DNA of 64,000 bases. Source: Patescibacteria group bacterium (lineage in GTDB: Bacteria > Patescibacteriota > Patescibacteriia > 2-12-FULL-60-25). Under the pieces are notes generated by a model. It was given only the letters and a program-made list of their open reading frames with translations. It did not search any database and was not told the origin of the DNA. The position numbers and the translations under genes were made by a program. Location: NCBI GenBank assembly GCA_029210915.1, contig JARGGJ010000003.1, forward strand, positions 1 to 64,000, read 5' to 3'. Shown one piece after another: positions 23,154 through 57,245 of this stretch (positions within the stretch are counted from its first letter, which is position 1; each line of letters opens with the position of its first letter).

Positions 23154-23158
23154 ATACT

Positions 23159-23428: not shown

Positions 23429-23432
23429 ATTT

Positions 23433-23804: not shown

Positions 23805-23814
23805 AAGCGTTTAA

Positions 23815-24093: not shown

Positions 24094-24094
24094 A

Positions 24095-24313: not shown

Positions 24314-24315
24314 AT

Positions 24316-24732: not shown

Positions 24733-24746
24733 AATTTACTTTTATA

Positions 24747-25481: not shown

Positions 25482-25502
25482 AGATTATAATTATATTGAA
25501 GA

Positions 25503-25943: not shown

Positions 25944-25955
25944 ATATTTATAATA

Positions 25956-26243: not shown

Positions 26244-26249
26244 ATTCAG

Positions 26250-27095: not shown

Positions 27096-27101
27096 ATATT
27101 T

Positions 27102-27575: not shown

Positions 27576-27578
27576 AGA

Positions 27579-28205: not shown

Positions 28206-28206
28206 A

Positions 28207-28809
28207 TTAGACGGTTTTTATCTTAAGAATAGAATTGCGAGCGCCCGGTACGGCACCTTTAATTGCCAAAATTCCCCCATCACGTACTTCTACAATTTGT
28301 AAATTTTTAACTGTAACCTGCGCATCTCCCATGTGGCCCGCCATGCGCTGGCCTTTAAAAACTTTTTGTACACCGCCCGAACCAATGGATCCAGGCATGC
28401 GCAACTGATCTTTATGACCATGAGATGCCGGCCCGCCTTTAAAACCATGGCGCTTTACAACACCCGCAAAACCACGGCCTTTCGATGTGCCGGTTACGTT
28501 AATGGTTTCACCTTTCTCAAATTGAGCTGCCTCAATAACATCTCCGCGTTTTAATTCACCTGGTTCTTCCAACCTAAACTCTTGTAAAACACGAACTTTA
28601 GGCAATTCGTTTAGATGCCCCTCGAGCGGCTTATTCAAACGTTTTGCATTCAAAAAGCCAACTTGGACAGCCGTGTAGCCATCCTTTTCTTGCCCCTTTA
28701 CTTGTGTCACAATGCATGGTCCTGCCTGAACAAGTGTAACCGGTACAACATGTCCGTTAGACGCATATACTTGCGACATTTCTAGTTTTTTTGCGAGAAT
28801 AAATTTCAT
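28207..28809 (-). CDS. rplC: ribosomal protein uL3
   Basis: 200 residues. The loop that reaches the peptidyl-transferase centre is present (GTSKGRGFAGVVKRHGFKGGPASHG) with MAGHMGDAQVTVKNL following. First gene of the rplC-secY run. GAAAAAGAT precedes the ATG; this is not a clear SD. Confidence 0.97.
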   Translation of the reverse strand: MKFILAKKLEMSQVYASNGHVVPVTLVQAGPCIVTQVKGQEKDGYTAVQVGFLNAKRLNKPLEGHLNELPKVRVLQEFRLEEPGELKRGDVIEAAQFEKGETINVTGTSKGRGFAGVVKRHGFKGGPASHGHKDQLRMPGSIGSGGVQKVFKGQRMAGHMGDAQVTVKNLQIVEVRDGGILAIKGAVPGARNSILKIKTV

Positions 28810-29294
28810 ATCTTTTTCGTCTATGATTGACGTACCGGCTCAACTGATTGGTTAATGAGTTTTAATTAGAGTACTCAATGACATCAGATGGTGCTTAAAA
28901 CACAAAAGCCAGAAACATATAACCATCGTTTCCGTATTTACGGAGTCACCCTCGAAGTTCGTCGAGCTGAGCTCGATTCGTTGTTCGAAATTCGAAGTTC
29001 GATAGTTAGTTGTTCCTGACCTCTGAGCGATTCTATAATTGCAGAGGAATTGTTGTAATACCTATAAACTTAAGCCTTTTGGCAAATTAATGGATTACCC
29101 ACTTAGTGACTCGCTGCAGGGAGGTTATGTCCATAGGTATACATTCGCTATGTACACTTGCTTCTCATCATCTTGCTACATGTTACATGTTACAAGTTAC
29201 ATGACTAAGGCGGACAACTTTCTCCTTGGGAGTATTAATGGGGGTACGATTTTTATGTTCTTTTTATTGACTCTCTTACTTGCGTGGGTTGATC
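28810..29294 (-). other. 485-base gap between rpsJ and rplC
   Basis: No gene is seen. It contains a TTCGAAATTCGAAGTTCG word array next to GAGCTGAGCTCGA (28970-29006), a GTTACATGTTACAAGTTACATG array (29180-29205), and a GTTTCCGTATTTACGGAGT hairpin near 28930. A leader or promoter for rplC may be here, but I see no strong -35/-10 pair on the minus strand. Confidence 0.5.
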
Positions 29295-29642
29295 TTATGA
29301 CATTTTTATCTCTACGTCAACACCGGAAGGAAGATTAAGAGAAGTAAGCGCCTCGATAGTCTTTGCACTTGCCTCTACTATATCGACAATTCGTTTATGA
29401 ATGCGCATCTCGAATTGCTCACGGGCATTCTTATAAACAAACGTTGAACGATTAACTGTCCACTTGCGTTTCTCGGTCGGTAAAGGGACAGGACCAATCA
29501 CCTGCGCACCTGTTCGGATTGCGGTTTCGATTATCGTATGTGTCGCTTGATCAATAATCTTATGATCATATGCACGAATCTTAATGCGGATTCGTGTACC
29601 GGCTTCTTTCGCGACTTTATTCGATGTTGCAGCTTGTGCCAT
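29295..29642 (-). CDS. rpsJ: ribosomal protein uS10
   Basis: 115 residues, about a dozen longer than usual at the N-terminus. RIRIKIRAYDHKIIDQATHTI and GPVPLPTEKRKWTVNRSTFVYKNAREQFEMRIHKR are the family core. Also the transcription factor NusE in antitermination with NusB (nusB at 45808). Confidence 0.97.
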   Translation of the reverse strand: MAQAATSNKVAKEAGTRIRIKIRAYDHKIIDQATHTIIETAIRTGAQVIGPVPLPTEKRKWTVNRSTFVYKNAREQFEMRIHKRIVDIVEASAKTIEALTSLNLPSGVDVEIKMS

Positions 29643-29659
29643 GATTGTTCCCGTCCCCC

Positions 29660-29702
29660 CGACCTTTCCGAGAGATCCTTTTACGGATCAATCGGAGGTC
29701 GA
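29660..29702 (-). promoter_or_regulatory. hairpin between tuf and rpsJ
   Basis: CGACCT (29660s) pairs with AGGTCG (near 29702) and encloses CCGA...TCGG and GATCC...GGATC stems. It is without a T-run, so more likely an mRNA structure separating tuf from rpsJ than a full terminator. Confidence 0.5.
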
Positions 29703-29729
29703 AGTAGACATTTTCAAATTTTTAAATAA

Positions 29730-30920
29730 TTACTTGATAATACTTGTTACCACACCCGCACCAACCGTTCTGCCGCCTTCGCGGATAGCGAAACGCATTT
29801 GCTCTTCCATGGCAACAGGTGAAATAAGTTTAACGTTGATCTTAACTTCATCACCCGGCTGAACCATAGCCACGCCCTCTGCCAAAGTTACCTCACCGGT
29901 AACATCTGTTGTGCGGATATAAAACTGTGGCTTGTAACCTGATACGAATGGTTTGTGGCGACCGCCTTCTTCTTTTGTTAAAGCATAAATCTGTGCTTCA
30001 AATTCTGTGTGAGGTTTGATTGAACCCGGCTTTGCTAAAACCATACCACGTTCTACCTCTTCTTTGCGAATACCGCGAAGAAGCAAACCTGCGTTATCAC
30101 CGGCACGTCCTTCTTGAAGTGATTTATTAAACATTTCAACACCCGTTACAACTGTTTTGCGAGTTTCGCCCAAACCAACCATTTCCACTTCTTCGTTAAC
30201 TTTGATCATACCGCGTTCGATACGACCCGTAACAACAGTACCACGGCCTTCGATGGAGAAAACATCTTCAATCGGCATCAAGAAATCTTTCTCAGTCTCA
30301 CGAACAGGCTCCGGAATATATGTATCCAAAGCAGCCATAAGATCCAAAACCGGCTTGGAAGCCTCTGGGTCTGATGCGTTCTCTAATGCTTTAAGAGCCG
30401 ATCCGCGGATAACAGGTGCGTTATCACCATCAAATTCGTATTTCTTAAGCAATTCACGAACCTCTTCTTCAACAAGGTCAATAAGCTCTGCGTCATCAAC
30501 CATGTCAACTTTATTCAAAAACACGACAATGCTCGGTACGCCAACCTGCTTTGCAAGCAAGATGTGTTCGCGAGTTTGAGGCATTGGGCCGTCTGTAGCC
30601 GCAACCACCAAAATAGCACCGTCCATTTGGGCAGCACCGGTGATCATGTTCTTAATGTAGTCAGCGTGTCCGGGGCAGTCTACGTGAGCATAGTGGCGGT
30701 TAGCCGTCTCATACTCAACGTGAGCTGTAGCGATAGTAATACCGCGATTCTTGGACTCGGGTGCCTTATCTAGTGCATCCACGCGCTTTTCATCGGCTGT
30801 AAAGCCATTAGCGGCCAGCACTTTTAAAATTGCTGCCGTTAGCGTGGTCTTGCCATGGTCAACGTGACCGATGGTTCCAACGTTCACGTGTGGCTTATTG
30901 CGTTCAAATGATTCCGCCAT
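29730..30920 (-). CDS. tuf: elongation factor Tu
   Basis: 396 residues. GTPase that brings aminoacyl-tRNA to the ribosome. G1 [10 protein letters not shown], switch [14 protein letters not shown] and the C-terminal beta-barrels ([20 protein letters not shown]) are all complete. Own promoter at 31025-31053 and a leader of about 97 bases containing a perfect CCTCGGTTAACCGAGG palindrome (30973-30988). No SD before the ATG. Confidence 0.98.
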
Positions 30921-30972
30921 ACAAAGTTATTGTGTAGATGCGTTCTACCCGGATTCAGATGCCGAGCCCTCG

Positions 30973-30988
30973 GTTAACCGAGGTGACG
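30973..30988. promoter_or_regulatory. 16-base perfect palindrome in tuf leader
   Basis: CCTCGGTTAACCGAGG lies about 52 bases upstream of the tuf start, inside the predicted transcript. It could be a short mRNA hairpin or a protein-binding dyad. Confidence 0.6.
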
Positions 30989-31024
30989 CGATTAAGATAA
31001 TTAAAGGTTAAATAAGCAAAAAAG

Positions 31025-31053
31025 ACTATAACATTTCCTATAAAATAACGCAA
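31025..31053 (-). promoter_or_regulatory. tuf promoter
   Basis: Minus strand TTGCGT (31053-31048), 17 bases, TATAGT (31030-31025). Transcription would start near 31018. Confidence 0.65.
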
Positions 31054-31057
31054 GAGA

Positions 31058-31681
31058 TTAACTTCCGACTTCCTCATCATCAACCGGCTCAAAATAGAAC
31101 CTATCCTCTACTGCCATTTCTTCGCTAATCTTAGATGATTTTGAGGTTCTCTCACTCTCAACTTCCTTCACTTCCGCGCCCATTTCCGTTTCACCGATTT
31201 CGGGTATATCCATTGGTGATAACTCTTCCGATCCCAAACTGTCCTCGAATTCAAATGCCGGAGCGGCCTTTTCATCCGGCTCATCAAGCCCAAATCCATT
31301 CCAACCCCAGCCCTCTTGATCCAACTTTTTCACAATCTCACTGTCCGAATAACCTTCCGAGCGCTTCTTGCGATATTGATTCATGTACTCGGCTTCGTTC
31401 CAGCTGTCATTTTCATCATCACCATCATCAAACTTTATCTCGGAAATTTGATCCGATTCCTCATCTATATCCAAGTCTTCGAGATACTTTGATGCATCAA
31501 AATCTTCCTCAAAATCATCTTCATCAATCATCTCAAAACCCCGATCATCATCGATCAAAGCTTCATAGATATCGAGCGGCAAAACAACCTGAGGCCTCTT
31601 GCCGTTCTCATCTGCGATTATAACCGGCGCACCAACTTTGCGCGCAGTTCTAAATATACGTTTCCATGACATAATGCCCAT
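31058..31681 (-). CDS. acidic protein with antitoxin-like N-terminus
   Basis: 207 residues. Residues 14-45 (GAPVIIADENGKRPQVVLPLDIYEALI) resemble the start of Phd/YefM-like proteins (a strand followed by a Y-E-A-L helix). The rest is very acidic and probably disordered, apart from a helix around YMNQYRKKRSEGYSDSEIVKKL and a W-G-W-N-G motif. Similar acidic proteins are common in these genomes, but the function is unknown. An ATG three codons downstream (31672) is equally possible. It reads towards tuf. Confidence 0.6.
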   Translation of the reverse strand: MGIMSWKRIFRTARKVGAPVIIADENGKRPQVVLPLDIYEALIDDDRGFEMIDEDDFEEDFDASKYLEDLDIDEESDQISEIKFDDGDDENDSWNEAEYMNQYRKKRSEGYSDSEIVKKLDQEGWGWNGFGLDEPDEKAAPAFEFEDSLGSEELSPMDIPEIGETEMGAEVKEVESERTSKSSKISEEMAVEDRFYFEPVDDEEVGS

Positions 31682-31724
31682 AGTTCACCACGCCAACAAC
31701 TTTTCATCAAGGGGCTAACTTACC

Positions 31725-31760
31725 CGATAGCTGATAGCGGATAGCTAATAGCTAAAAACC
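31725..31760. repeat. GATAGC word array
   Basis: CGATAGCTGATAGCGGATAGCTAATAGCT; the words GATAGCTGATAGC and AGCTATC/AGCTATTAG recur in gaps at 38160, 45384 and 52616. Confidence 0.85.
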
Positions 31761-31803
31761 AGCCAACCGACAAGCGGTTTTGACGATAAATCATCCGAGA
31801 GAA

Positions 31804-31832
31804 TTGACCCTTTCTTCGTTATATGCTTATAT
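31804..31832 (+). promoter_or_regulatory. promoter of 31868 gene
   Basis: TTGACC (31804-31809), 17 bases, TTATAT (31827-31832). Confidence 0.55.
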
Positions 31833-31867
31833 AATCTCGCAAATCACAAAAACCAAAGGGAGAAAAA

Positions 31868-32080
31868 ATGCCAACAAAATGCAAAATCTTCACCGTTTCA
31901 CATGGAGACGCTACCCAAGCCAAATGCAAGGGAGAACATTTGATCAGCCAATGCCTCGAACAACAAGTAAACGAATGGATGAGCGAAAGAAACGGACTGA
32001 CTATTTACAAAATGCAACTCAATATCGATAACGTTGGTTCCAAAACAATAACCCTCGTTCTCCTCTACGATACATATTGA
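31868..32080 (+). CDS. small unknown protein
   Basis: 70 residues with three cysteines, no membrane segment. GGGAG stands six bases before the ATG; promoter and terminator are both present, so it is a complete single-gene cassette. The C-terminal stretch (YKMQLNIDNVGSKTITLVLLYDTY) looks like two beta strands. No family recognised. Confidence 0.7.
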   Translation: MPTKCKIFTVSHGDATQAKCKGEHLISQCLEQQVNEWMSERNGLTIYKMQLNIDNVGSKTITLVLLYDTY

Positions 32081-32093
32081 CACCTAACTCTAC

Positions 32094-32121
32094 ACCCTCC
32101 CTTTTTCGAGGGTTCTTTTTA
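32094..32121 (+). terminator. terminator of 31868 gene
   Basis: ACCCTC/GAGGGT stem with an eight-base loop, then TTCTTTTTATT. Confidence 0.8.
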
Positions 32122-32168
32122 TTAAAAAATCAGATACAATGGTTGACAAAAGGCTAAATATCTGTTTT

Positions 32169-32196
32169 GTTATAATACGAAAGTAATTGTACTTTC
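32169..32196 (+). promoter_or_regulatory. extended -10 promoter with operator-like dyad for 32219 gene
   Basis: TGTTATAAT (TG at 32168-32169, TATAAT 32171-32176) is followed two bases later by the perfect dyad GAAAGTA-ATTG-TACTTTC (32179-32196). A TTGACA is 22 bases upstream of the -10, too far for normal use. A protein bound to the dyad would block the polymerase start site. The same dyad stands after the promoter of the 42483 gene. Confidence 0.65.
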
Positions 32197-32218
32197 ACAA
32201 AAGAAAGAGGTGAACGCA

Positions 32219-33157
32219 ATGGGCCGTCGTACTCAAAAACTACATGACGGTAACAAAATCTACATCAAGCACCATGCGATGCAACGCCGTTTGGAAGCGG
32301 ATGGCCATGATACGTCATTCATATTCACTGGAAATACGGATCCAATAGATAAGGCAAGACGCGCAGCTGTTTGCGTTATGATGCTAAGAGAATTAAGCGA
32401 CTCCCAATTAATCAGCTATCAACAAACTCAAATCTTTAGGCACCCGGGCCGTTACAGAACCGCGGATGATGCCCTGTACTACCTGACTGATGATTTCAAT
32501 TTCTGCTACGTTGTAAAAAATAATAATGTTATTACGGTGATTCCTGTCAGCGAAAATCAGTATCAAACTTTGATGCGGATGTTGGAAGAAGATACCGAGG
32601 AACCGCAGACAAGCACCGATACCCCACCCGTGTCGCAAGTTAAAGAAATCGAACCCAATCTCGAAGTCCAAAAACTGAAAGATTTAAATCCCGTATTGCA
32701 AAACGAGATGGGCAAACTTTGGATGATTATTGGGCTCGATAGCACCCAGCCGGTTATTTCGGCAGACAAATTAAAAAAATTATTCAACATGTTTTTTGAA
32801 ATTTTTGATTTTGATTGCTTCCGCGTTGTATACAATGAACGCGTAACTCACTTGCACAGAGGTGAAAATACTTTAGCCGCATTAAATGGCAGGTACAATC
32901 ATGTCCCCGCATATTGGATAGATTTATCATGCGGTACCTCTCAACGGCAACTGCTCGAAAGCGGTAGCATGAGTTGCCCAACAATTATTATCACAAACGC
33001 CATAACCGCGCGCGACATCTGCACAATGCTTAACAATACCCAAAAAGAAATCCGCATACCCGCGTCATTTCCCTGGATTGCATACTTTGCACACTCCGCA
33101 AAAACCATGGTGGAAGGAGCCATTCCGCTCGGCAAGAAATTCAATTTTGCCGCCTAA
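32219..33157 (+). CDS. unknown two-part protein, regulated cassette
   Basis: 312 residues from the ATG at 32219, preceded by AAAGAGG. The N-terminal part (residues 1-120: KIYIKHHAMQRRLEADGHD ... FCYVVKNNNVITVIPVSENQ) has the HA-x-x-R and V-I-T-V-I-P layout seen in small RelE/DUF4258-type proteins, which is only a weak resemblance. A Pro/Thr/Glu linker (about 125-150) leads to a C-terminal domain of about 150 residues with no known motif. It has its own promoter, dyad and terminator, and lies between fusA and tuf. Confidence 0.72.
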   Translation: MGRRTQKLHDGNKIYIKHHAMQRRLEADGHDTSFIFTGNTDPIDKARRAAVCVMMLRELSDSQLISYQQTQIFRHPGRYRTADDALYYLTDDFNFCYVVKNNNVITVIPVSENQYQTLMRMLEEDTEEPQTSTDTPPVSQVKEIEPNLEVQKLKDLNPVLQNEMGKLWMIIGLDSTQPVISADKLKKLFNMFFEIFDFDCFRVVYNERVTHLHRGENTLAALNGRYNHVPAYWIDLSCGTSQRQLLESGSMSCPTIIITNAITARDICTMLNNTQKEIRIPASFPWIAYFAHSAKTMVEGAIPLGKKFNFAA

Positions 33158-33160
33158 CCG

Positions 33161-33187
33161 AACCTCACGTTGAGGTTCTTTTTTTTT
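33161..33187 (+). terminator. terminator of 32219 gene
   Basis: AACCTCA-CGT-TGAGGTT followed by CTTTTTTTTT. Confidence 0.9.
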
Positions 33188-33254
33188 ACCTTGATTTTCA
33201 GGATTACGAACCGATTAACAGGATTGTTATTTATTATTTGTAAATTATTATTTA

Positions 33255-33286
33255 AAAAGAAAGAGCCCCGGTTTCCCAAGGCTCTT
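33255..33286 (-). terminator. terminator of fusA
   Basis: Minus-strand stem AAGAGCC/GGCTCTT with a 12-base loop, then TCTTTTTAAAT. Confidence 0.7.
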
Positions 33287-33299
33287 CTAACTTTCTCGA

Positions 33300-33330
33300 T
33301 GTTCGAAATTCGAAATACGAAATTCGATTT
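33300..33330. repeat. TTCGAAATTCGAAATACGAAATTCG array after fusA
   Basis: Short self-complementary TTCGAA words repeat every eight or nine bases just downstream of the fusA stop; the same word is found at 28990 in the rpsJ-rplC gap. Confidence 0.85.
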
Positions 33331-33336
33331 TTAATT

Positions 33337-35418
33337 TTATTTCTTCCCCTTGCCATCAATCAGTTCTTGCTGAACCATGGCAGGCACCGGAGCGTAATGA
33401 TCGAATTCCATTGTGTAAACACCGCGACCCTGGGTCATGGAACGAAGGTTTGTTGAATAACCAAACATTTCCGCAAGCGGCACAATCGCGCTGATGGTTT
33501 TCATATCATAGCGATCTTCCATGGATTGTATCTGCCCGCGTTTGGAATTAAGATCTCCCATAACATCACCCATATATTCCTCGGGAACAACAACCTCAAC
33601 TTTTTCCATCGGCTCCAAAATGCTTACACCGGCTTTTTCACAAGCCGCTTTAAAAGCCATGGATGCCGCAATTTTAAACGCTGCCTCGGAAGAGTCTACT
33701 TCGTGGTATGAACCATCATAAACGGTTGCCTTAAAATCCAAAATTGGATAACCGGCCGCAACACCGCGTTTTGCGGCTTCCTGAATTCCTTTGTTGATTG
33801 GCTGAATATATTCGCGAGGAATAGCTCCGCCAACAACCTCACTGGTAAACTCATAACCCTTGCCTCTTTCGGATGGCTCGATGCGAATCCAGCAATGACC
33901 GAATTGACCGCGTCCACCGGATTGACGTACAAATTTACCTTCACCTTCCGCCGGGCCTTTAATAGCCTCTTTATAGGCCACCTGCGGCTTACCAACATTG
34001 GCCTCTACACCAAACTCACGTTTCATGCGATCAACAATAATTTCCAGGTGCAACTCACCCATACCGGAAATAATTGTTTGCAAAGTTTCTTCATCGGTTC
34101 TAACTCTGAAAGACGGATCTTCTTCACCAATCTTTTGCAAAGCGACACCCATTTTTTCTTGGTCGGCTTTGGTCTTTGGCTCGATCGCGATATCAATAAC
34201 CGGTTCCGGAATAACAATCGTTTCAAGCAATAAAGGATGCTCCTCATCGCACAGTGTATGACCGGTAAATGTTTCCTTCAAACCCACAGCCGCAGCAATT
34301 TCTCCGGCATAAACAGCAGGCACTTCCTCGCGGCTGTTTGCATGCATTCTAACGATACGACCTACACGCTCTCTTTTGCCATTGGTTGCATTATAAACGT
34401 ACGAACCGGATTCCAAACTGCCCGAATAAACACGGAAGAAGATAAGTTTACCAACGTAAGGATCTGTCATTACTTTAAAAGCCAATGCCGAAAAAGGCTC
34501 TTCATCCGATGGCTTTCTAATAATCACTTTTTCCGGATCATCAACATCATGCCCTTCCATTGGAGGCACATCAAGTGGTGACGGCAGATAATCAACAACT
34601 GCATCAAGAAGCATTTGCACACCTTTATTCTTTAAGGCTGACCCCAAAAGAATTGGGAAAATATCCATGCTGTTTACCGCTTTTCGAAGAGCGGATTTGA
34701 TTTCTTCTACAGACAATTCTTCACCGGCAAGATATTTGTTCATAAGAGCTTCATCGGTTTCCGATAAAGCTTCTAAAAACTCACTGCGCCATTTTTTGGC
34801 ATCTTCCATTCTATCTTCGGGGATATCAACTTCATCTATTTCTCTGCCGAGTTCATCCTTATACATGAATGCTTTCATGGTAATCAAATCAATGATGCCC
34901 ACAAAATTCGACTCCGTGCCGATTGGAAGTTGAATCGGATATGCACGTTTTGCCAATCTATTGCGAATCGATAAAACATCTTTATAAAAATCCGCGCCCA
35001 TGCGATCGAGTTTATTAACAAAACACATACGGGGCACTCTATATTTATCAGCCTGACGCCAAACTGTTTCAGATTGAGGCTCAACACCCGCAACACCATC
35101 AAATACGGTTACCGCTCCATCCAACACACGAAGTGAACGTTGTACCTCGATTGTAAAATCAATGTGTCCCGGAGTATCAATAAGATTCATGCGTTGACCT
35201 TTCCAAAAACAAGTTGTAGCGGCGGATGTAATTGTAATACCGCGCTCTTGCTCTTGCTCCATCCAATCCATAGTAGCTTCACCTTCATGAACTTCGCCGA
35301 TCTTATGTTTACGCCCCGTATAAAATAGCACGCGTTCGGAAACGGTTGTTTTGCCCGCATCAATGTGGGCGATGATACCGAAGTTTCGGGTATCTTTTAA
35401 TGAATATTCTCTAGGCAT
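33337..35418 (-). CDS. fusA: elongation factor G
   Basis: 693 residues. Translocation GTPase. G1 [21 protein letters not shown], and domains II-V through [27 protein letters not shown] are complete. Length is normal. It is separated from rpsG by a terminator (35437-35468), so it may have its own transcript. No SD before the ATG (run of AT only). Confidence 0.98.
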
Positions 35419-35436
35419 AATAATATATATTAGTAG

Positions 35437-35468
35437 ACAAAAAAGAGGCGAGCCATTGGACGCCCCTT
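35437..35468 (-). terminator. terminator between rpsG and fusA
   Basis: Minus-strand stem AAGGGGCG/CGCCTCTT (one G-T pair) with a ten-base loop, then TTTTTTGTC. Confidence 0.75.
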
Positions 35469-35513
35469 ATTGATATTAAAAATCTTTGGTTACTCCCTCG
35501 CCATCATCCATAT

Positions 35514-35981
35514 TTAGTGGGCGAAGTGAGCAAAGGCGCGGTTGGCTTCTGCCATGCGTTGCACATCCTGTTTTTTCTTAACCGCATCGCCTTGATTTCC
35601 CATGGCGGCTAATAGCTCTTCTGTAAGTTTCATGGCCATTGGCTTGCCCTTCTTGGCACGAGCTGCCGCAATAATCCAACGAAATGCCAATTGCTGCCTG
35701 CGCTCTGCACGTACTTGAAGCGGAATTTGGTAGTTAGCCCCACCAACACGACGAGATTTAACCTCGAGCATGGGTGAAACATTCTTTAACGCTTCTTCAA
35801 AAGCTTCCAAAGCCGGTTTTTCCGATTTCTTTTCTAAAATCTCGAGTGCATCATAAACAATACGCTGAGATGTTGATTTCTTACCGCCGTCCATTATGTA
35901 ATTGATAAACTTGGCTACGGAAGTGGAGCCATATTTTGGATCCGGATTGATTGTACGCTTAGGCGCTTTCTTTCCTCTCAT
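35514..35981 (-). CDS. rpsG: ribosomal protein uS7
   Basis: 155 residues. Head assembly protein at the E/P sites. DPKYGSTSVAKFINYIMDGGKKSTSQRIVYDAL and the VGGANYQIPLQVRAERRQQLAFRWI block are typical. One base after rpsL. Confidence 0.97.
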   Translation of the reverse strand: MRGKKAPKRTINPDPKYGSTSVAKFINYIMDGGKKSTSQRIVYDALEILEKKSEKPALEAFEEALKNVSPMLEVKSRRVGGANYQIPLQVRAERRQQLAFRWIIAAARAKKGKPMAMKLTEELLAAMGNQGDAVKKKQDVQRMAEANRAFAHFAH

Positions 35982-35982
35982 A

Positions 35983-36411
35983 TTATGATTTTGCTGCTTT
36001 AGGTTTCTTAGCGCCGTAAATGGAACGGCTGCGTCTGCGGCTCTCTACACCTTGTGTGTCGTAAACACCACGAACAATATGATAGCGAACACCAGGCAAA
36101 TCTTTAACACGACCGCCGCGGATCATCACAATCGAGTGCTCCTGTAAATTATGCCCCTCACCCGGAATATAGGCTGTTACCTCTTGTCCGTTGGATAAGC
36201 GTATACGAGCAATCTTGCGCATAGCCGAGTTTGGCTTTTTCGGAGTTGCTGTTGTTACTTTTGTGCAAACACCACGCTTAAAAGGTGAGCCCTTGGAAAG
36301 CTCTGTGCGTGTGCGATGTAATGTATCGCGGGTGTATTGCATTGCCGGGCTCTTTGATTTGGCCTTGGCACTTCGACGCGGGCGTCGAATTAATTGATTT
36401 GTAGTAGGCAT
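35983..36411 (-). CDS. rpsL: ribosomal protein uS12
   Basis: 142 residues. The decoding-centre loops [13 protein letters not shown] and [17 protein letters not shown] are intact; the streptomycin-site lysine is K in KKPNS. Promoter boxes lie so close (36424-36452) that the predicted mRNA begins only about six bases before the ATG. Confidence 0.97.
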
Positions 36412-43124: not shown

Positions 43125-44651
43125 TTGACGGATGACAAAAAAACTTGCGGTTGCAACGGACCATTGGCACCACAACCATTTTTCAATTCTTCTCGTGACG
43201 CCCGAACACTCACTCGGCTCCAAGAACTTATCGGCCAAATTCCCGAAGAACTCACACGAAAAGAATGCCTGGCATTGATAGAAGACCAAAAACAACAAGC
43301 TGTACAACGGCTACGTGAAGAAACCGAGCAAAAAATTCTTCAAACTTTCCCAAACCTGATTTGTTTTGCCGACAATCCAAACGAATGTAAGGAAAAAAGA
43401 ATTTTAAAGCGTTTTTTCTCTATTCGCCACAACTCTGTCATGGTGGGAGAACTGAAAAGATTTCGTGGGATGCAAAAAGCATTAAAAACCGCCAAAGACT
43501 CTGTAGAGAAATCATTGCCAAAAACCGAATACCGCACAGCCGTTGCCGAAGCTCAAGACCGTGCGCTCTTCGATATGTATACCGACAAATATGGACTGGA
43601 CAGATTTGGTTTCGAAAAATCTCGCGCTTTAATGCGCCAAGCAATTACCAACACCCGCGCTTCACTGGAAAGTATTCTAAGCGAATATTTCCCACCCAAT
43701 CGTCATTACGATCTTACGTTTAATGACAGGGTTCAAACCGCCCTAACCATGCCTCAATTAATTGAACTTATGAGTTCAAAACCCGGGCAAGGTGTATTTT
43801 CCAGCCGGATTCCTTTTGAGGCCCGCATCGTGGCTGTCATTGCTCAACTGGAATTTGAGAGCCTCATAGGTACACATAATCCAGATGCGCTGGATCAAAT
43901 TCGTGAGAGCTTACTGGATCAGCTTGAAAAAAAAGTTTTTCAAGGCGCGGAAACTACCACCGTAGTCGTTGTGGCCAAACTGGATCCCCTCAACCATTAC
44001 CGTGTCAAACAACACACCGATGGAAGCTATGCAATAGCTTGGTACTACGAAGATGACCCTGAGGCAAAACAACAAACATCGGAAACGGTTTTTATTCAAC
44101 GCCTCAGAGTGCACATCATCAAAAAAAATGGCAACTGCATTCTGGTTCACTCCAAAGCTAGAAGAAAAGAAAGAATCTTTGCCAAACAATTGCGTAAAAA
44201 CCAACGCAAACCCGAACAAGTCACCGATTTGTCCGGGCTTGTCATGGTTCTTCTGAACAACAACCCCATCAACGAGGAATGTTTGGCGAATCGCTTAAGA
44301 GCAACAATCGTAAACTGCCCCGGATTGGTTTCCGCTCAACAATCAAATGCCAAACGAGCCGGTGCCATCGACCGCGACAACCCATTCTCGTCAGACACAA
44401 GGCGAGGAGAAAAATACGAGTTTCTTTGGAGTGGAATATGGCACGAGCTTCAAATCCTAGCCCTGCCCGATTTCATCAACTCGCTCATTGCACACGCACA
44501 GGATGGCCATCCATTCTACAAACTAATCACTTATCTCGACACGCTTTTTCCTTGGATCTGGCCTGCTCACATTTATAGAATGGACTGGTTCAGCCAAGAA
44601 ATCCGCGACATGCTCTGGCGTTACAAATGTTCCACGCTCCAACCCGCCTAA
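43125..44651 (+). CDS. large unknown protein with divergent RelA/SpoT-like region
   Basis: 508 residues, TTG start fixed by AAGGAGG seven bases upstream. The N-terminus (KTCGCNG) has two cysteines. Around residues 342-375, HSKARRKERIFAKQLRKN and VTDLSGLVMVLLNN resemble the R-x-K-x2-x-S-I-x2-K-x2-R-K ... D-L-x-G-x-R-I part of (p)ppGpp synthetases, and HELQIL near 441 resembles their V-E-x-Q-I. The final arginine and tyrosine positions cannot be placed with certainty, so activity is doubtful. The first 300 residues are not recognised. Own promoter, SD and terminator. Confidence 0.7.
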   Translation: MTDDKKTCGCNGPLAPQPFFNSSRDARTLTRLQELIGQIPEELTRKECLALIEDQKQQAVQRLREETEQKILQTFPNLICFADNPNECKEKRILKRFFSIRHNSVMVGELKRFRGMQKALKTAKDSVEKSLPKTEYRTAVAEAQDRALFDMYTDKYGLDRFGFEKSRALMRQAITNTRASLESILSEYFPPNRHYDLTFNDRVQTALTMPQLIELMSSKPGQGVFSSRIPFEARIVAVIAQLEFESLIGTHNPDALDQIRESLLDQLEKKVFQGAETTTVVVVAKLDPLNHYRVKQHTDGSYAIAWYYEDDPEAKQQTSETVFIQRLRVHIIKKNGNCILVHSKARRKERIFAKQLRKNQRKPEQVTDLSGLVMVLLNNNPINEECLANRLRATIVNCPGLVSAQQSNAKRAGAIDRDNPFSSDTRRGEKYEFLWSGIWHELQILALPDFINSLIAHAQDGHPFYKLITYLDTLFPWIWPAHIYRMDWFSQEIRDMLWRYKCSTLQPA

Positions 44652-51565: not shown

Positions 51566-51838
51566 ATGGCCAAAAATGTTTATGTACCACCGCGCAGGAA
51601 CGTAAAAATCAAATCGGGTCAAAACGCCCGTATTACATCCAGCCATCAAAAACCCTATCGTAAAGATGGCAAGCCAGCTCACGAAAGAACGATTCATCCC
51701 GACGAAGCTCAACAAGAAGCCGCCACAGAGCTGAATCCCGCTTTCGTAAACCCTGATGGCTCTATCAATTTCTGGGCGGGTATTTCCACCGCCCCACAAT
51801 CCACTCATCAAGACAAAGATGAACCAGAGGACAAATGA
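51566..51838 (+). CDS. small basic-acidic unknown protein
   Basis: 90 residues, hydrophilic throughout and likely disordered (PPRRNVKIKSGQNARITSSHQ ... TELNPAFVNPDGSINFWAG ... KDEPEDK). AAAGGAG precedes the ATG and a hairpin terminator follows. No family recognised. Confidence 0.65.
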   Translation: MAKNVYVPPRRNVKIKSGQNARITSSHQKPYRKDGKPAHERTIHPDEAQQEAATELNPAFVNPDGSINFWAGISTAPQSTHQDKDEPEDK

Positions 51839-51855: not shown

Positions 51856-51886
51856 AACCGCCGTAAGCCCCGGCGGTTGTTTCTTG
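51856..51886 (+). terminator. terminator of 51566 gene
   Basis: AACCGCCG/CGGCGGTT with a seven-base loop, then GTTTCTTG. Confidence 0.7.
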
Positions 51887-52294
51887 TCTGAACCTTGATT
51901 AAAAACTGTCTTGAACCTTGATTTTCGAACCGATTACAAACCTAATTTACCATGATTACTTAAGGTTGATAATTGTCTATTCCTAAAGTAATCAAGGCAA
52001 TCTGATCGCGAATCAAGTTTTTATCCAAAGGCAGATCCGCCAATGGCGGAAATCAAGGTTCAGACAATAAGTAATTAAGGTAAATTAGGTTTGTAATCAA
52101 GTTTAATCAAGGTTCAGACAATAACCATTCAAGGTTCAGACATTTTCTGTCCATCAGCTTTTGACAAAAACAACATATACGAAGTTTTAGCTTATCTTAG
52201 CCAAAATCTATATAGCTTATTTTTTCGCTAATTTTAGCCATAAAAACAAGCTATTTTTTTGTTACTCAATTTACAGAATATTGACCAAGGGGGC
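51887..52294. repeat. AACCTTGATT word field before the GC-rich block
   Basis: TTGAACCTTGATT and AATCAAGGTTCAGAC words occur at least six times in both directions (51889-52145), with GATCCGCC-AAT-GGCGGA in the middle (52035-52053). From 52150 to 52290 it is plain AT-rich sequence. No gene. Confidence 0.85.
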
Positions 52295-52323
52295 TTGACA
52301 AAATCCTCAATTTGTGATATAGT
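52295..52323 (+). promoter_or_regulatory. strong promoter of the GC-rich block
   Basis: TTGACA (52295-52300), 17 bases, TATAGT (52318-52323). The first gene starts 474 bases downstream. Confidence 0.78.
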
Positions 52324-52329
52324 ATCCCG

Positions 52330-52745
52330 TTAAGCTAAAAGATCGACAACTAAGCCAAGGCATAATTAATCGCTTCATTCATCTCTGATGAATGTCCCGC
52401 AAAGCCCAATGGGGCGACGTGGGATCCCCGCCAACGCATAGTTACAAACTTTAAAACCGCTTAACCTTCAGAGGAGAGAGGACTTGAACTTACTTGTCGT
52501 AGTTCGAGTCTGAGTATCGCCGGATACTAACTGAAGAACACAAATATAGTGCCCTGCTCTGCAGATCACCTGTTTTGTGCAAACAAATTACAGCCAACAG
52601 CTCTTGATCGCCTATGGCGATATCCGCTATCGGCTATCAGCTATAAAAAGCACCTCGACAATTTACCGTCTTAACCCCTCATGTCAGCCCTCAAAAAAAG
52701 AGTTAGGGCATGAGTGGCTGGGACGGAGTCACCACTTTTAAACCG
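52330..52745 (+). ncRNA. structured leader or RNA at start of GC-rich block
   Basis: Hairpins: CATTCAT-CTCTG-ATGAATG (52376-52394); GTCCC/GGGAT enclosing CCC-AAT-GGG (about 52394-52434); a three-way junction closed by CTTCAG/CTGAAG (52466-52471, 52531-52536) that holds GACTTGAACT/AGTTCGAGTC (52481-52490, 52501-52510) and AGTATC-GCCG-GATACT (52513-52528). Another word hairpin GGCGATATCCGCTATCGGC is near 52615. Stems are long and nearly perfect. I recognise no RNA family; it may be a separate RNA or a 5' leader. Confidence 0.5.
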
Positions 52746-52796
52746 TGGTGATTGAAAAAGTAACAAAGGGTGTTTATACGCCCAAAGGAGATTATC

Positions 52797-53111
52797 ATGT
52801 TGTTCGCAGCCATCCTGTCCGCCCTCGTCCTCGCCGTTCTTGTCATGCTCCCCCTCACCGAGCTCTCGCTCACCCGCGCAGCTCACGCAGAGCTCTACGG
52901 CCTCGAGACGGAACCGGTGACCATCCGGACGAACGGAATGGGGACAGTGTTCCTCATGATGGAGTTCGTCCGGTTGGAGGAGCGGGAGGTTGCTGAGCGC
53001 GCGCTCGCGGAGCGCTACGTGGAAGGGGACGCTCTCCCCCTCCATGCCCCGCTCTTCGAGCTCCCGCTGTTCGCGCCGCTCCCCGCGGCCAACGACCAGC
53101 GCGCCGCCTAG
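52797..53111 (+). CDS. small membrane protein of GC-rich block
   Basis: 104 residues from the ATG at 52797 (AAAGGAG seven bases upstream). An N-terminal helix (LFAAILSALVLAVLVMLPLTEL) is followed by a charged part rich in Glu, Arg and Leu (FVRLEEREVAERALAERYVEGD) and a Pro-rich end. Codons end mainly in C or G, unlike the rest of the window. No family recognised. Confidence 0.65.
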   Translation: MLFAAILSALVLAVLVMLPLTELSLTRAAHAELYGLETEPVTIRTNGMGTVFLMMEFVRLEEREVAERALAERYVEGDALPLHAPLFELPLFAPLPAANDQRAA

Positions 53112-53505
53112 TGCAATGCTAGGCGACCGGGTTTCTACGTTCCCGGTCATCAAAGAACGTTCCTTAGTGGCTGTAATGGCCGATGCCTGGAGGTCAAGGC
53201 AAAAAAACAGACTGCTCTGCAGTCACCTCGCTCACTAAACAATCTCGTTTAGTGAGCTCTCGAACCGAGATGTCGATGATAATCGACGGCTCGGTTCGGA
53301 AATCTCCCAAATCACGCTTTGCGTGATTGTCCCTCTTTGTTAAAGAGGGTCACGGACAACGGAACATTTAAAAAACATTTAAAATGTGTAGGGATAACCC
53401 TTGTGGTTATCCGTGCTGTAAAACCAGTACGGACAATCAAAAGAGTTATCCCTACAAACAACCTTAGAAACAGATAAAAACCTGTTTCTATACAAGGAGA
53501 CATAA
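53112..53505 (+). repeat. hairpin chain and palindromic element, copy 2
   Basis: Perfect hairpins: GACCGGG/CCCGGTC (53125-53148), CTCACTAAAC/GTTTAGTGAG (53231-53256), CGAACCGAG/CTCGGTTCG (53261-53298) with inner TCGAT/ATCGA, AATCACGC/GCGTGATT (about 53312-53330), CCTCTTT/AAAGAGG (53332-53347). Then 53387-53454 is the GTAGGGATAACC...GTTATCCCTAC element. No frame. Confidence 0.85.
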
Positions 53506-53799
53506 ATGCTGAACCTCGCCATCACCCTCACCGTCACCGCCATCGTCGTCGCTTTCTGGAGCCGGTGGGGATTTCGGGTGATGGGGATGCTTTCAGCATT
53601 CCTCACACCGGCCGAACCCGCCCACCAGCGGGTCAACATCAATCGTCGCCAGAGAGACGGCTACAAGGCTCTCCTTAGGGAGGCTGAGTGGCGCGAACTC
53701 GAAGGAGCAACTCTCCTTCGAGAGACACTCGAAAGCGACGACGAGCTTGCGCGAGCCTACCTCGCGCAACTCGAAACCCGCAACCGCAAGGTTGTGTAA
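53506..53799 (+). CDS. small membrane-anchored protein of GC-rich block
   Basis: 97 residues; AAGGAG six bases before the ATG. One N-terminal helix (LNLAITLTVTAIVVAFWSRWGF), then a helical, charged domain (RRQRDGYKALLREAEWRELEGATLLRETLESDDELARAYLAQLETRN). Not recognised. Same GC-rich codon use as its neighbours. Confidence 0.65.
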   Translation: MLNLAITLTVTAIVVAFWSRWGFRVMGMLSAFLTPAEPAHQRVNINRRQRDGYKALLREAEWRELEGATLLRETLESDDELARAYLAQLETRNRKVV

Positions 53800-53802
53800 A
53801 TA

Positions 53803-53918
53803 CTTGGCGCAATGCCAAGAAGTCGCCCCAATAACAATCTGGGCGCCGAACCAACCGATGTTCGTAAAAAAGAGGTCGTAATATCACGGGGTGGCTCCGT
53901 GACGCGTAGATAATACGC
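53803..53918 (+). promoter_or_regulatory. four hairpins between 53506 gene and tRNA-like element
   Basis: CTTGGC-GCAAT-GCCAAG (53803-53819), CGCCC/GGGCG (53824-53845), CACGG/CCGTG (53885-53901), GCGTA/TACGC (53904-53918). Together with the next element they form a 220-base structured run without a frame. Confidence 0.65.
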
Positions 53919-53938
53919 GGTCAATATTCGCACTTTCT

Positions 53939-54025
53939 GGCATCGACCATCGAAAAATGAGCGGGTTGCTCAGCCGGACCTCCGGTGGATGGTGATGTGA
54001 GTAGGTTCAACTCCTACCGATGCCA
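53939..54025 (+). ncRNA. tRNA-like element without normal cloverleaf
   Basis: GGCATCG (53939-53945) pairs with CGATGCC (54018-54024), and a T-arm GTAGG-TTCAACT-CCTAC (54001-54017) abuts the 3' acceptor strand exactly as in tRNA; discriminator A and then CT. The T-loop matches TTCRANY. The 55 bases between do not give D and anticodon arms; instead ACCATC/GATGGT closes two small hairpins GAGC-GGGTT-GCTC and GCCGG/CCGGT. 86 bases long. It could be a degenerate class II tRNA, a tmRNA-like remnant or a functional mimic. Confidence 0.55.
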
Positions 54026-54366
54026 CTACTTAACCCTCCAAAGTTTTTTGCTAAGGAGGGTGATTCAATCGGCTGCATCATTCTAAAGATGGTGCACCTA
54101 AGAATCGCGAACCGTACATAGAGCCCCAATAGCCCTAACCGGCAATCGGCTCCTAAGATGTTAGCGACGAATCTACCCAAAAATCCGGTCCACCGCTTTT
54201 TAGCACAGGATCTGGTTGGTAGAAAAATCAAAAACAACTTATGCAAATTCCAAGCGGCAACATGGTGTTGCTGTGCGGAAACGGTTCTTCCCGGAAACCG
54301 GTGGCGCCCATGGCCACCTCCAACATAGAGATGTCGTTTCAAACGCGTCTCTCTGGAGAATATAAA
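54026..54366 (+). other. non-coding stretch before zinc-ribbon gene 1
   Basis: A frame upstream of the 54367 ATG is open but has no SD and intergenic-like sequence. CGGTTCTTCCCGGAAACCG (54283-54301) and AGAGATGTCGTTTCAAACGCGTCTCTC (54328-54353) are hairpins; the second lies just before the SD. Confidence 0.5.
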
Positions 54367-55332
54367 ATGACAAAGTCCGCCACAGCCGCCACCACCACCG
54401 TTTCCACCACCTCCTCCGCCTCGGACGAGGCGATGGACATCCTCCGCGAGGCCAATGGTCTCTACGAAAAGGCACCCCCCGCCTCGGAGGAGCGACCCAG
54501 TCTCCACCTCCTTACGCCTCCCCCGCCCCCCGCGGTGAGTGAGGTCAAGGAGCTCCCCGAACCTCCGCGCCCGACTGTGGTCGTCCATGTCTGCGATTGC
54601 GGAGCAACTTGCGCGGACGTGGCATGGTGCCACGAGCTCGAGATGTGCAAGACCTGTGCAGCTCTTCTCGTCAGGAAGGCTGAGCAAAAAATGTGGTTCT
54701 GCGCTTGCGGAAATCGTAAGTTGGACAAAGACTACGATCTCTGCGTGCCCTGCCACAAGGCACTGCTCAAGGAGCAGGCGGCAGAAAGAGCAGCGGCAGA
54801 AGCCGCCAAGCTCGTCTGCCCCAAGTGCGGTGGCAAGAAGGATGAGGCATATCACAAGATGTGCCGAAGTTGCTTCACCGCCTCCCGCCCTGTGCCTGCG
54901 CCTCGCCCTCAGCAGGCTCGCAAGGTCAACGGCCGCGAGGTACCCAAGTACAAGGTGGACCCGCGAGTGCAGGCGAAAGCCAACGCCCGAGCCAAGCTCG
55001 GTCAGGAGCTCCTCGCCGCCCACCGCGCCGGTACGCTCGATAAGAGCTTCACCGGTGCGAAGGCGACGATGGACAAGGCGGACAACGCCATGGTGTGCAT
55101 CGCCTACAACGGCGAGAGCTACACCCTGGTCGACCCGGCCAAGGTCAAGGCAATCGCCGAACGCAAGGCCGAGGCTGCCAAGGCTGCCCAGACTGCCCAA
55201 GCCGAGGCCGCCCGCAAAGCCGCCGAGGCACGCAAGGCCGCAGCGGAACTCGCCAAGGCCAACAAGTCCAACGAGCCCAAGAAGGGCAAGAAGGACAAGT
55301 CCGGTGGCAAGGGTAAAAACAAGGGTAAGTAG
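54367..55332 (+). CDS. zinc-ribbon protein with lysine/alanine-rich tail
   Basis: 321 residues from the ATG at 54367 (GGAG upstream). Thr/Ser-rich start, then Pro-rich (LLTPPPPPAVS), then a cysteine-rich part at about residues 78-185: C-D-C-G-x2-C, C-x2-C, C-A-C-G, C-x2-C, and C-P-K-C ... C-R-S-C, enough for three zinc sites. A middle region (VNGREVPKYKVDPRVQAKANARAKLGQELLA) leads to a long Ala/Lys/Glu helix and ends in K/G repeats like histone H1 tails. Nucleic-acid binding is likely but inferred. Overlapping long frames in other phases are shadows of the GC bias. Confidence 0.72.
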   Translation: MTKSATAATTTVSTTSSASDEAMDILREANGLYEKAPPASEERPSLHLLTPPPPPAVSEVKELPEPPRPTVVVHVCDCGATCADVAWCHELEMCKTCAALLVRKAEQKMWFCACGNRKLDKDYDLCVPCHKALLKEQAAERAAAEAAKLVCPKCGGKKDEAYHKMCRSCFTASRPVPAPRPQQARKVNGREVPKYKVDPRVQAKANARAKLGQELLAAHRAGTLDKSFTGAKATMDKADNAMVCIAYNGESYTLVDPAKVKAIAERKAEAAKAAQTAQAEAARKAAEARKAAAELAKANKSNEPKKGKKDKSGGKGKNKGK

Positions 55333-55375
55333 CTCGCACTTTTAAGGGAGATGTGATGACTCCCTAATCACAAAC

Positions 55376-55575
55376 ATTCATCACACCACTCGCCCAATCG
55401 ATCTCGATTGGGCCTTTGACTAAAATCCCCCAATCCAGCGCTTTGCGCAGGATATCCCCCTTTTCCGCCATAGGCGGATCCGCCTATGGCGGAAAAGGGG
55501 GTCTCGATGGAGGGTTTTTGAGAAGTAACATTCCCCCTGCCCCCGTCAGCTGAGCTGAGCTCTGCTTTCAGAAAG
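55376..55575 (+). repeat. hairpin module A of GC-rich block
   Basis: ATTCATCACACCACTCGCCC, then the terminator-like GCCCAATCG-ATCT-CGATTGGGC (55393-55414), then CCCCCTTTTCC...GGAAAAGGGGG with a palindromic loop, then GGTCTCGATGGAGGGTTTTTG, AGAAGTAACATTCCCCC and a closing AAAGGGGGTTGTA. Module B at 56459-56612 has the same parts in the same order, with shorter loops. Confidence 0.88.
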
Positions 55576-55615
55576 GGGGTTGTAAATAAATCCGCCGCAT
55601 CCCGACGGATTGCAC

Positions 55616-55685
55616 GTAGGGGCGCATCCTTGTGATCGCCCGTGCTAAAAACCACAGCACGGATAACCACAAGGGTTATCCCTAC
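55616..55685. repeat. palindromic element GTAGGG...CCCTAC, copy 3
   Basis: GTAGGGGCGCATCCTTGTGATCGCCCGTGCT faces AGCACGGATAACCACAAGGGTTATCCCTAC. The left arm is changed (GCGC/GATCGCC) while the right arm is the same as in copies at 50259 and 53387. Confidence 0.85.
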
Positions 55686-55730
55686 AAAATACACAACCAA
55701 ATCCCGCAAAATGCGGGGAGGAGATTTCAG

Positions 55731-56420
55731 ATGAACAGCACGCAGACCGCCGCCGCCTCCACTTCCAACCCCAGCTCCCGCACGGTCCGCCTCGCAAAGG
55801 AGTTCATTCGTCTCAATACGAAGTTCTCCAAGCAAAATCTCCACGACCATGCGCTCACCAATGCGAAAGTCGCAGAGAACGCGCGGAAAGCAGTGGCTCT
55901 CAACGAGAACCGGAGTTTCCCGAATCTGGAGCCAATCACTCCGGAAGATGTCTCGTGCGCGGTTCGGGAGATGCTCGCATACGAGCGCGAGCTGCGCCGT
56001 GGCAAAATCGAAGAGGAGCGCAAAGCGCGCCTCGTCGAATGCCCGGCTTGCGGCATCAAACGCCGCGACCCGCGGTTCGAGCACTGCGCTGTTTGTGCTA
56101 GGCTCGACGCGGAGAACGAGGCGCTCATCAAGGCCGGCAAGCTGAGGCCCGGTACGCCGCTTTCCCTAGAAGAAATCGACGCCATCGCGGTTCAACAGCA
56201 AACCGCGGCCACAGAGGAGCTGTATGTACTTTGGTACAGAGGTCAGCTCCCCGAAGGCTGTGAAGTTTTGGAAATAAACGAAACCCAAATCCACATCCAA
56301 TCTAGGAACCCGGATGTGCTTTGGAAAATCGACTTTTCCGAACTTCTGCCAGCCAGATCGTCCGAACCCTCCATCGAATCCATCGACCAGGGTTGGGACA
56401 TCGAGGCTGTCGCCGCGTAG
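55731..56420 (+). CDS. zinc-finger protein 2 of GC-rich block
   Basis: 229 residues from the ATG at 55731 (GGAGGAG upstream). The first 110 residues are helical and basic. One zinc site C-P-A-C-G-I-K-R-R-D-P-R-F-E-H-C-A-V-C at about 104-122 resembles the CPKCGGKKDEAYHKMCRSC part of the 54367 protein, so the two may be related. The last 60 residues (TEELYVLWYRGQLPEGCEVLEI ... DVLWKIDFSELLPA) have lower GC codons and a beta-rich look. Flanked by hairpin modules A and B. Confidence 0.68.
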   Translation: MNSTQTAAASTSNPSSRTVRLAKEFIRLNTKFSKQNLHDHALTNAKVAENARKAVALNENRSFPNLEPITPEDVSCAVREMLAYERELRRGKIEEERKARLVECPACGIKRRDPRFEHCAVCARLDAENEALIKAGKLRPGTPLSLEEIDAIAVQQQTAATEELYVLWYRGQLPEGCEVLEINETQIHIQSRNPDVLWKIDFSELLPARSSEPSIESIDQGWDIEAVAA

Positions 56421-56458
56421 CGCACACCCCCAGGTTATGTGATGAAACCTGTTTCTTA

Positions 56459-56612
56459 ATTCATCACACCACTCGCCCAATCGATCTCGATTGGGCCTTT
56501 GACTGAAATCCCCCACTCCGACGTACGTCGGAGATCCCCCTTTGCTAAAGGGGGTCTCGATGGAGGGTTTTTGAGAAGTAACATTCCCCCTGCCCCCTTT
56601 CAAAAAGGGGGT
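56459..56612 (+). repeat. hairpin module B of GC-rich block
   Basis: It has the same order as module A: ATTCATCACACCACTCGCCC, GCCCAATCG/CGATTGGGC, CCCCCTTT-GCT-AAAGGGGG, GGTCTCGATGGAGGGTTTTTG, CCCCCTTT-CAA-AAAGGGGG, TTGTA. The loops are three bases instead of the 10-30 in module A. Confidence 0.88.
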
Positions 56613-56669
56613 TGTAGCATAGCAACCACAGAGACCCTCCAACGGAGCGTCTCAGCTAAGGAGAAAAAA

Positions 56670-57008
56670 ATGAATCATAAGCAGATCCCGGACATCGTAG
56701 GCTTGGGACAGTTCTTGGTACGAAAGGGTACAGACTGGAAGCCGAAGGCTTTCATCGTCCTCGCCCTCCTTTACCTGTTCTTCCCTGTCGACATCCTGCC
56801 CGACGCCCTACCCGTCGCAGGACTTTTCGACGATGCGGGCCTAATGGCCCTCTCGCTTTGGTGGCTTTCATACGCCACCAAAAAATACAACATCTCCCTC
56901 CTCGGCGAAGGCGAGGCTTCGAAGCCCGCCGAACTCGAGGAGAAACCGCCCGCAAGCGTCATCGACGCCAAGGGTGAGGAGGTCAAAGAACCCGATTCGG
57001 GTCAATGA
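56670..57008 (+). CDS. DUF1232 family small membrane protein
   Basis: 112 residues from the ATG at 56670 (AAGGAG upstream). The DUF1232/YkvA core is seen: IVLALLYLFFPVDILPDALPVAGLFDDAGLMALSL (split across the helix pair), with the family D-x-L-P-D and D-D-A motifs. A charged C-terminal tail follows. The family is found in membranes of many bacteria, role unknown. Last gene of the GC-rich block. Confidence 0.85.
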   Translation: MNHKQIPDIVGLGQFLVRKGTDWKPKAFIVLALLYLFFPVDILPDALPVAGLFDDAGLMALSLWWLSYATKKYNISLLGEGEASKPAELEEKPPASVIDAKGEEVKEPDSGQ

Positions 57009-57245
57009 CCTCAAAAGCTACAAGGTTTTCGAGAAGTTCCCTCGGCTCACGCTCGTCCCTCGAAGTTCGAAGAACGTAGTGGGACCAAAAACTTCTCCTT
57101 ATCCACTTGCGCATCAATTTGATGCATAAATGAATATTGCGCAAACTTGATTGTTATCAAGTTTTTTTGTTATTAAAAAGATATCGCACACGCGATACCT
57201 AAATTCTTAATTTTTAATTCTTAATTCTTAATTTTTATTTGGTAA
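57009..57245. repeat. end of GC-rich block and word repeats
   Basis: CCTCGAAGTTCGAAGAACGTAGTGGGACC (57057-57087), TTGCGCATCAATTTGATGCATAAATG hairpin-like words (57105-57131), and TTCTTAATTTTTAATTCTTAATTCTTAATTTTT (57204-57236). No gene and no clear terminator for the block. Confidence 0.7.

Follow-up and report, generated by a model that had tools for sequence, protein, structure and literature searches.

What kind of genetic unit is a GC-rich block of five genes separated by long, structured gaps, and what might its RNA structure do? The question is raised by positions 52295–57008 (+ strand) of a 64,000-nt stretch of contig JARGGJ010000003.1 (hereafter the window), which belongs to a metagenome-assembled genome (MAG; GCA_029210915.1) of Candidatus Uhrbacteria (1.46 Mb, 98% complete, 49 contigs; the window lies on contig C33). 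Bacteria of the candidate phyla radiation (CPR) have small genomes rich in genes without assigned function, and to our knowledge few regulatory RNAs have been described in them. A preliminary description had proposed that the block, with its membrane and probable nucleic-acid-binding proteins encoded on a structured transcript, is an undescribed unit, with an integrated plasmid or phage remnant as the main alternative.

A predicted operon with distinct composition

The block is headed by a strong promoter at 52295–52324 (TTGACAAAATCCTCAATTTGTGATATAGTA), in which TTGACA and TATAGT are separated by 17 bases, with an extended −10 TG and 11 of 12 consensus bases. It is followed by a long 5′ leader (52330–52796), five open reading frames (ORFs), G1 to G5, all on the + strand, and a conserved 3′ untranslated structure with an AT-rich terminator (57009–57170; AACTTGAT-TGTT-ATCAAGTTTTTTT). 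The terminator scan did not list this site because its G–C pairs are too few, and on the + strand the scan gave no terminator-like site at the end of any internal gene. Several same-strand genes between one promoter and one terminator are the layout of a predicted operon. The ORFs have Shine-Dalgarno (SD) sequences (AAGGAG, AAGGAG, TGGAG, GGGAGG and AAGGAG, in order) and are separated by gaps of 249–567 nt; for G3, G4 and G5, translation probably begins further downstream than the first start of the longest ORF.

G1 (52797–53111, 104 aa) and G2 (53506–53799, 97 aa) each carry a single N-terminal hydrophobic segment. G3 (54367–55332, 321 aa) contains CxC/CxxC motifs, a small C-terminal domain and a Lys/Ala-rich tail resembling that of histone H1, and G4 (55731–56420, 229 aa) combines a CPACG..CxxC motif with a C-terminal domain as in G3. 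G5 (56670–57008, 112 aa) is a DUF1232 membrane protein by profile (PF06803; 35.9 bits versus the Pfam gathering cut-off of 23, E 6e-9), with one clear hydrophobic segment inside the domain; it is the only one of the five proteins for which a named database family was found. For G3 and G4, nucleic-acid binding at the envelope or the nucleoid is probable, and zinc binding is putative.

Across the block the GC content climbs from about 0.41 to 0.54–0.58, and the GC content at third codon positions (GC3) is 0.70–0.87, versus 0.396 ± 0.055 for 47 other genes of the window (maximum 0.53). High expression was rejected as an explanation of this bias, because the ribosomal protein operon with tuf and fus, at 19893–36411 of the window, prefers A/T-ending codons (GC3 0.28–0.44). 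In two related genomes (G003 and G005) neighbours such as pyrF are likewise GC3-rich (0.70–0.82), so the contrast between block and neighbours depends on the species. The preliminary description was accurate in most particulars: the perfectly spaced promoter, the C/G-ending codons, the shared strand and strong SDs, the lack of a clear terminator within the block, two single-helix membrane proteins, the DUF1232 protein, and two proteins with paired cysteines, one (G3) with a histone-like tail.

Vertical inheritance across the genus

A search for the gene order in related genomes recovered it in a second species (G008), which matches the block in all five genes and their order and also in leader, 3′ end and neighbours. 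The first part of the leader is 78% identical between the two species, and the G008 counterpart of the terminator reads CTCCC-TTA-GGGAG-CTTTTTTT. Amino acid identity over aligned codons is 55% for G1; it is 83% for G5. The ratio of nonsynonymous to synonymous substitution rates (dN/dS) is 0.52, 0.34, 0.43, 0.53 and 0.08 for G1 to G5, values (0.08–0.53) that indicate purifying selection on the block genes. GC3 is 0.71–0.90 in the G008 genes despite a synonymous divergence (dS) of 0.7–1.4, so the bias is actively kept and is no leftover of a recent transfer.

The block lies between pyrF/pyrE and DUF11/DUF4012 genes, and in related genomes of the genus the same site is taken by a promoter-headed block with a leader element: the DUF11 neighbour was confirmed in G001, G002, G003, G005, G006 and G007, and the pyrF neighbour by tblastn in G003, G005 and G007 (G004 was left out of this judgement for a contig break). 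The first gene at the site usually codes for a basic-tailed protein with Cys motifs (G001, G002, G003, G005 and G006), and the remaining cargo varies. A joint model of G3 and G4 picked up a G006 protein that had not seeded it (E 4.7e-7; reversed control 0.35). In a 286-genome sample of the class, a clear homologue of G3 was found in G008 alone; a likeness by eye of other ORFans to the G3/G4 C-terminal domain was not confirmed by hidden Markov model. Judging by these comparisons, the block was inherited vertically, not inserted, and the proposal of an undescribed conserved unit gains from an order kept in G008 and a position kept genus-wide.

The promoter consensus recurs in 25 of 41 genomes of the family (reversed control, 0), and the block's own genome has just two sites at ≤3 mismatches to it. 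Sequence downstream of promoters of this class is GC-richer at 23 of 28 family loci (p 2e-5), as it is at 12 of the 13 other sites in the own genome (p 0.002). The idea that the class serves one cargo family was dropped because most of its relatives have no homologous proteins in common, the G3/G4 domain alone being shared. Within the leader, element L2 (52467–52541) consists of a closing helix, AGAGGAG and a CUUGUC hairpin; its pattern occurs in the leaders of 7 of 9 genus genomes (reversed-sequence control, 0) and folds alike in each, conservation here being counted by pattern and fold, with no pair count, since MAFFT misaligned the element.

Hairpins before the SDs and structure within coding sequence

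In all five genes of the block a hairpin ends 0–4 nt ahead of the SD (52768–52783, 53465–53490, 54327–54352, 55703–55717 and 56631–56653 for G1 to G5), with z of −3.1 to −8.4 against mononucleotide shuffles, versus a mean z of −0.38 in 40 background genes (p 1e-5). By the same test the arrangement is present in four of the five G008 genes. Further hairpins follow G3 (55353–55415) and are in part repeated after G4 (56459–56616), as found by repeat search and, for those after G3, by comparison with G008. Hairpins thus stand at the ends of the segments, as in operons with protective RNA structures. Comparison with G008 also identified RNA element B (53843–53930), two covarying hairpins, which is placed after G2 in the window and after G1 in G008.

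Against shuffles of synonymous codons, the coding RNA of G2 to G5 shows excess folding (z −4 to −7.4; −3.2 to −6.4 in a second run), and that of G2 to G5 in G008 is likewise over-folded (z −2.0 to −5.8). Over all blocks tested, the excess of coding structure over control genes had p 0.0035, and in some relatives the excess is absent.

A tRNA-like RNA, R1, and a second RNA family, R2

The gap between G2 and G3 contains a tRNA-like RNA, R1 (53938–54029; fold z −3.2), with a 7-bp acceptor, a T-arm and a central helix bearing two hairpins, and with no anticodon arm; the acceptor and T-arm are what is expected of a tRNA-like processing element. Copies were found in the window, in G008 (on another contig), G030, G013, G029, G010 (two) and G025, with weaker ones in G033, G032, G016 and G009. 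Across 12 sequences, 22 of 26 pairs carry compensatory double changes, and covariation extends to acceptor and T-arm alike. The model-fitted alignment has 98.1% of cells paired versus 75% when shuffled; it leans toward structure, and slid controls still fall to 38–52%. The tRNA-like fold that the preliminary description had noticed is genuine by this covariation, and the RNA is undescribed. The hairpin-before-SD pattern, the covarying R1 and the conservation in G008 are all beyond chance.

Known RNAs were considered for these elements and rejected. R1 is not a tRNA: it lacks the cloverleaf with D and anticodon arms, no R1 locus gave an ARAGORN call and the block has no Rfam tRNA match. Like transfer-messenger RNA (tmRNA, RF00023), R1 has an acceptor and T-arm with the normal D/anticodon region absent, but it is only about 90 nt long, has no tag reading frame, and the genomes have canonical tmRNA elsewhere (over the cut-off in 37 of 41); tmRNA was discarded for the second RNA, R2, as well. 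Among the 4227 models of Rfam 15 none matched R1 or R2, and no hit pointed to a bacterial Y RNA (YrlA). Viral contigs did not contain the R1 core pattern. The elements in the gaps are unlike one another, R1 being the tRNA-like one, which made an integron cassette array with attC sites and integrase an unpromising reading.

R2, an RNA of about 153 nt that adjoins several R1 copies, was found by following R1. It has a closing helix with GGAGGAG and three hairpins, and a model built from five copies matches 30 of 41 family genomes in 18 of 21 genera, usually as one to three copies at a single locus; R2 is rare beyond the family. In 60 copies, 36 of 41 pairs covary, with 89.9% paired versus 65% shuffled and 39–47% slid, and an outer helix extends the structure (8.1 of 10 pairs versus 5.8). 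At many loci R2 lies upstream of a fast-evolving ORF that faces an HTH gene, ftsK and recA, and the large ORFs at R2 loci show an excess of coding structure (p 0.0003). The own-genome copy is at C44:43127. Related genomes carry this undescribed RNA in predicted transcription units of like kind. The window leader was tried as an R2 member and rejected, as the block has no R2 match, and no consistent leader-peptide reading frame was seen by eye in L2 or R2. Other orphan structured RNAs of bacteria, such as OLE, ROOL and GOLLD, are conserved, and ROOL and GOLLD often lie near tRNAs (PMC12286853); R2 differs in being about 153 nt long, tandem, chromosomal, lineage-restricted and without an Rfam match.

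Further features of the block and related loci

Dispersed repeats account for other structures in the gaps. Hairpins with many genome copies, including a MITE-like (miniature inverted-repeat transposable element) sequence (TGTAGGGATAACC...), occupy 53301–53456, a perfect 23-bp palindrome dispersed in the genome lies at 55456–55501, and further repeat hairpins and palindromes lie at 55640–55690 and 56500–56616. Upstream of the promoter, 51878–52142 holds a cluster of direct and inverted repeats of AATCAAGGTTCAGACAATAA, and a small conserved protein (SSHxxP... motif) is encoded directly upstream of the block promoter in several genus members (window 51566–51838; L225, L226, L227 and L230).

A GGAGAG hairpin with a downstream CTCTCC, a possible kissing pair, occurs 32 times versus 4 in the reversed control, in the leaders of L225, L226, L227, L228 and L230 and also of L187 and L055. 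The last two loci (L187 on own contig C5; L055 on G008:C39) each have a promoter-headed GC-rich gene for a DHH-type phosphoesterase-like product, and the G008 copy of R1 precedes the one at L055. R2 copies stand in tandem at L159/L167 (C44:43127–43503) and at loci L137–L166, largely syntenic near ftsK/recA across the family. A second promoter (TTGACA..TGCTAAGGT) precedes a large GC-rich ORF at L159 (~43900–44150) and L148 (G004) and is followed by another conserved leader closed by GGAGG...CCTCC. Directly 3′ of R2 at L167, L148 and L178, in the genus of the block, is a gene for a small basic protein (..RKxLPPPxxxHKxKxKYxRKxKH..).

Discussion

We propose, with a probability of roughly 0.55, that the genus inherited the block vertically as a highly expressed operon, that its transcript owes both its cleavage and its stability to RNA structure, and that R1 serves as a processing signal. 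A single transcript would run from the promoter at 52295 to the terminator near 57160, its leader bearing L2. RNase III would cut the structured gaps at long perfect hairpins, and RNase P and RNase Z, both of which read an acceptor and T-arm, would cut at R1. Every cistron set free in this way would carry one stabilising hairpin immediately upstream of its SD and others beyond its stop codon, and small proteins would be translated from long-lived mRNAs. The products would be specific to the lineage, comprising membrane proteins (single-helix or of the DUF1232 family) and Cys-motif proteins with a probable affinity for nucleic acid. Of all these steps, it is in the function of the proteins that the proposal is weakest.

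The processing and stabilisation steps are modelled on two precedents. That structures at either end of an operon segment, often within coding regions, protect it is an established mechanism (PMC5927463), and the malEFG and papBA operons described there share with the block intercistronic and intragenic hairpins able to stabilise segments after endonuclease cuts (PMC5927463). The block differs from them in its hairpin before every SD, its near-continuous coding structure and its tRNA-like gap element, and cleavage here is something we infer. In mitochondria, tRNAs punctuate polycistronic transcripts. By analogy, the acceptor and T-arm of R1 form a unit between two cistrons at which RNase P and RNase Z could cleave; unlike a punctuating tRNA, R1 is non-decoding, with a central helix and two hairpins and neither an anticodon arm nor an ARAGORN call.

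Several observations weigh against this proposal. Many of the perfect hairpins and palindromes of the gaps have copies genome-wide, and some may therefore be passengers; the preliminary description of gaps full of structure holds for the hairpin-SD modules and R1, and fails in that a large share of the hairpins is dispersed repeat rather than block-specific RNA. The hairpin-SD test was built on mononucleotide shuffles. G1 shows no excess of coding structure, and relatives of the lead gene in G002, G005 and G006 show little (z −0.1 to −1.2). R1 is missing from the G008 block and present at another locus of that genome, so it is not essential to the operon. Finally, AlphaFold2 models of G3 and G4 were of low confidence, and Foldseek gave no fold match.

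The position of R1 points to the strongest competing explanation, that R1, and R2 at its own locus, is a trans-acting small RNA carried along by blocks of strong transcription, so that its presence in this operon would be incidental. We regard this as a real possibility, though clearly the less probable one: most genomes having R1 hold one strong copy, in surroundings that differ (within the block here, before the DHH-type gene in G008, and directly downstream of R2 in G009, G013, G016, G025, G030, G032 and G033), and R2 is nearly single-locus and strongly covarying, with an outer helix resembling an RNase III processing stem. However, G010 holds two R1 copies, and one of its R1 copies lies about 190 bp from a gene of the G3/G4 Cys-motif family (E 1.6e-7 by a model excluding that gene), so that R1 neighbours a Zn-motif gene both there and in the window, which a cis role fits equally well. 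A bolder extension, which we hold to be rather unlikely, is an undescribed RNA apparatus of the Uhrbacteria, in which tandem R2 and the anticodon-less, tRNA-derived RNA would mature from strong transcripts and act in trans, together with structure-selected mRNAs, this block being one, and with Zn-motif/H1-tail products handling them.

Explanations that set RNA processing aside fare worse. That the genes are fast-evolving accessories, with gaps that are insertion targets of genome repeats and RNA structure without function, would suit the many dispersed-repeat hairpins, but R1 covariation, L2 conservation, hairpins before the SD of every window gene and the coding-structure excess make it improbable. 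Slightly less credible still is a system for nucleic-acid uptake, packaging or transfer, in which the structured transcript, or DNA, would be the ligand of the Zn/H1-tail proteins at a membrane complex; the types of protein and a coding RNA apparently selected for structure agree with it, but no homology to uptake, packaging or defence components was found, and only gene order ties the proteins to the RNA. The suggested defence role likewise fell away, PADLOC giving only MTase_II (E 0.0023 over 41 residues of G4). Least probable is the integrated plasmid or phage remnant of foreign composition. The GC content and codon usage differ from the rest of the genome, the genes are ORFan-like, and G5 matches PHROG 14750 and, distantly, two Acinetobacter phage records; against this stand the genus-wide synteny and the GC3 retained in G008 at strongly diverged synonymous sites, as well as searches of plasmids and viral contigs, which gave no relative of G3. 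The DUF1232 family is widespread, no convincing phage match emerged, and the block showed neither mobile-element genes or relatives nor a sporadic position.

For the biology of the CPR lineage, these results add two undescribed, strongly covarying RNA families, one of them tRNA-like without an anticodon, and a clear example of an operon whose coding and non-coding sequence alike look shaped for RNA structure. The shared promoter, RNA elements and syntenic sites may serve as handles by which such genes can be read as a class.

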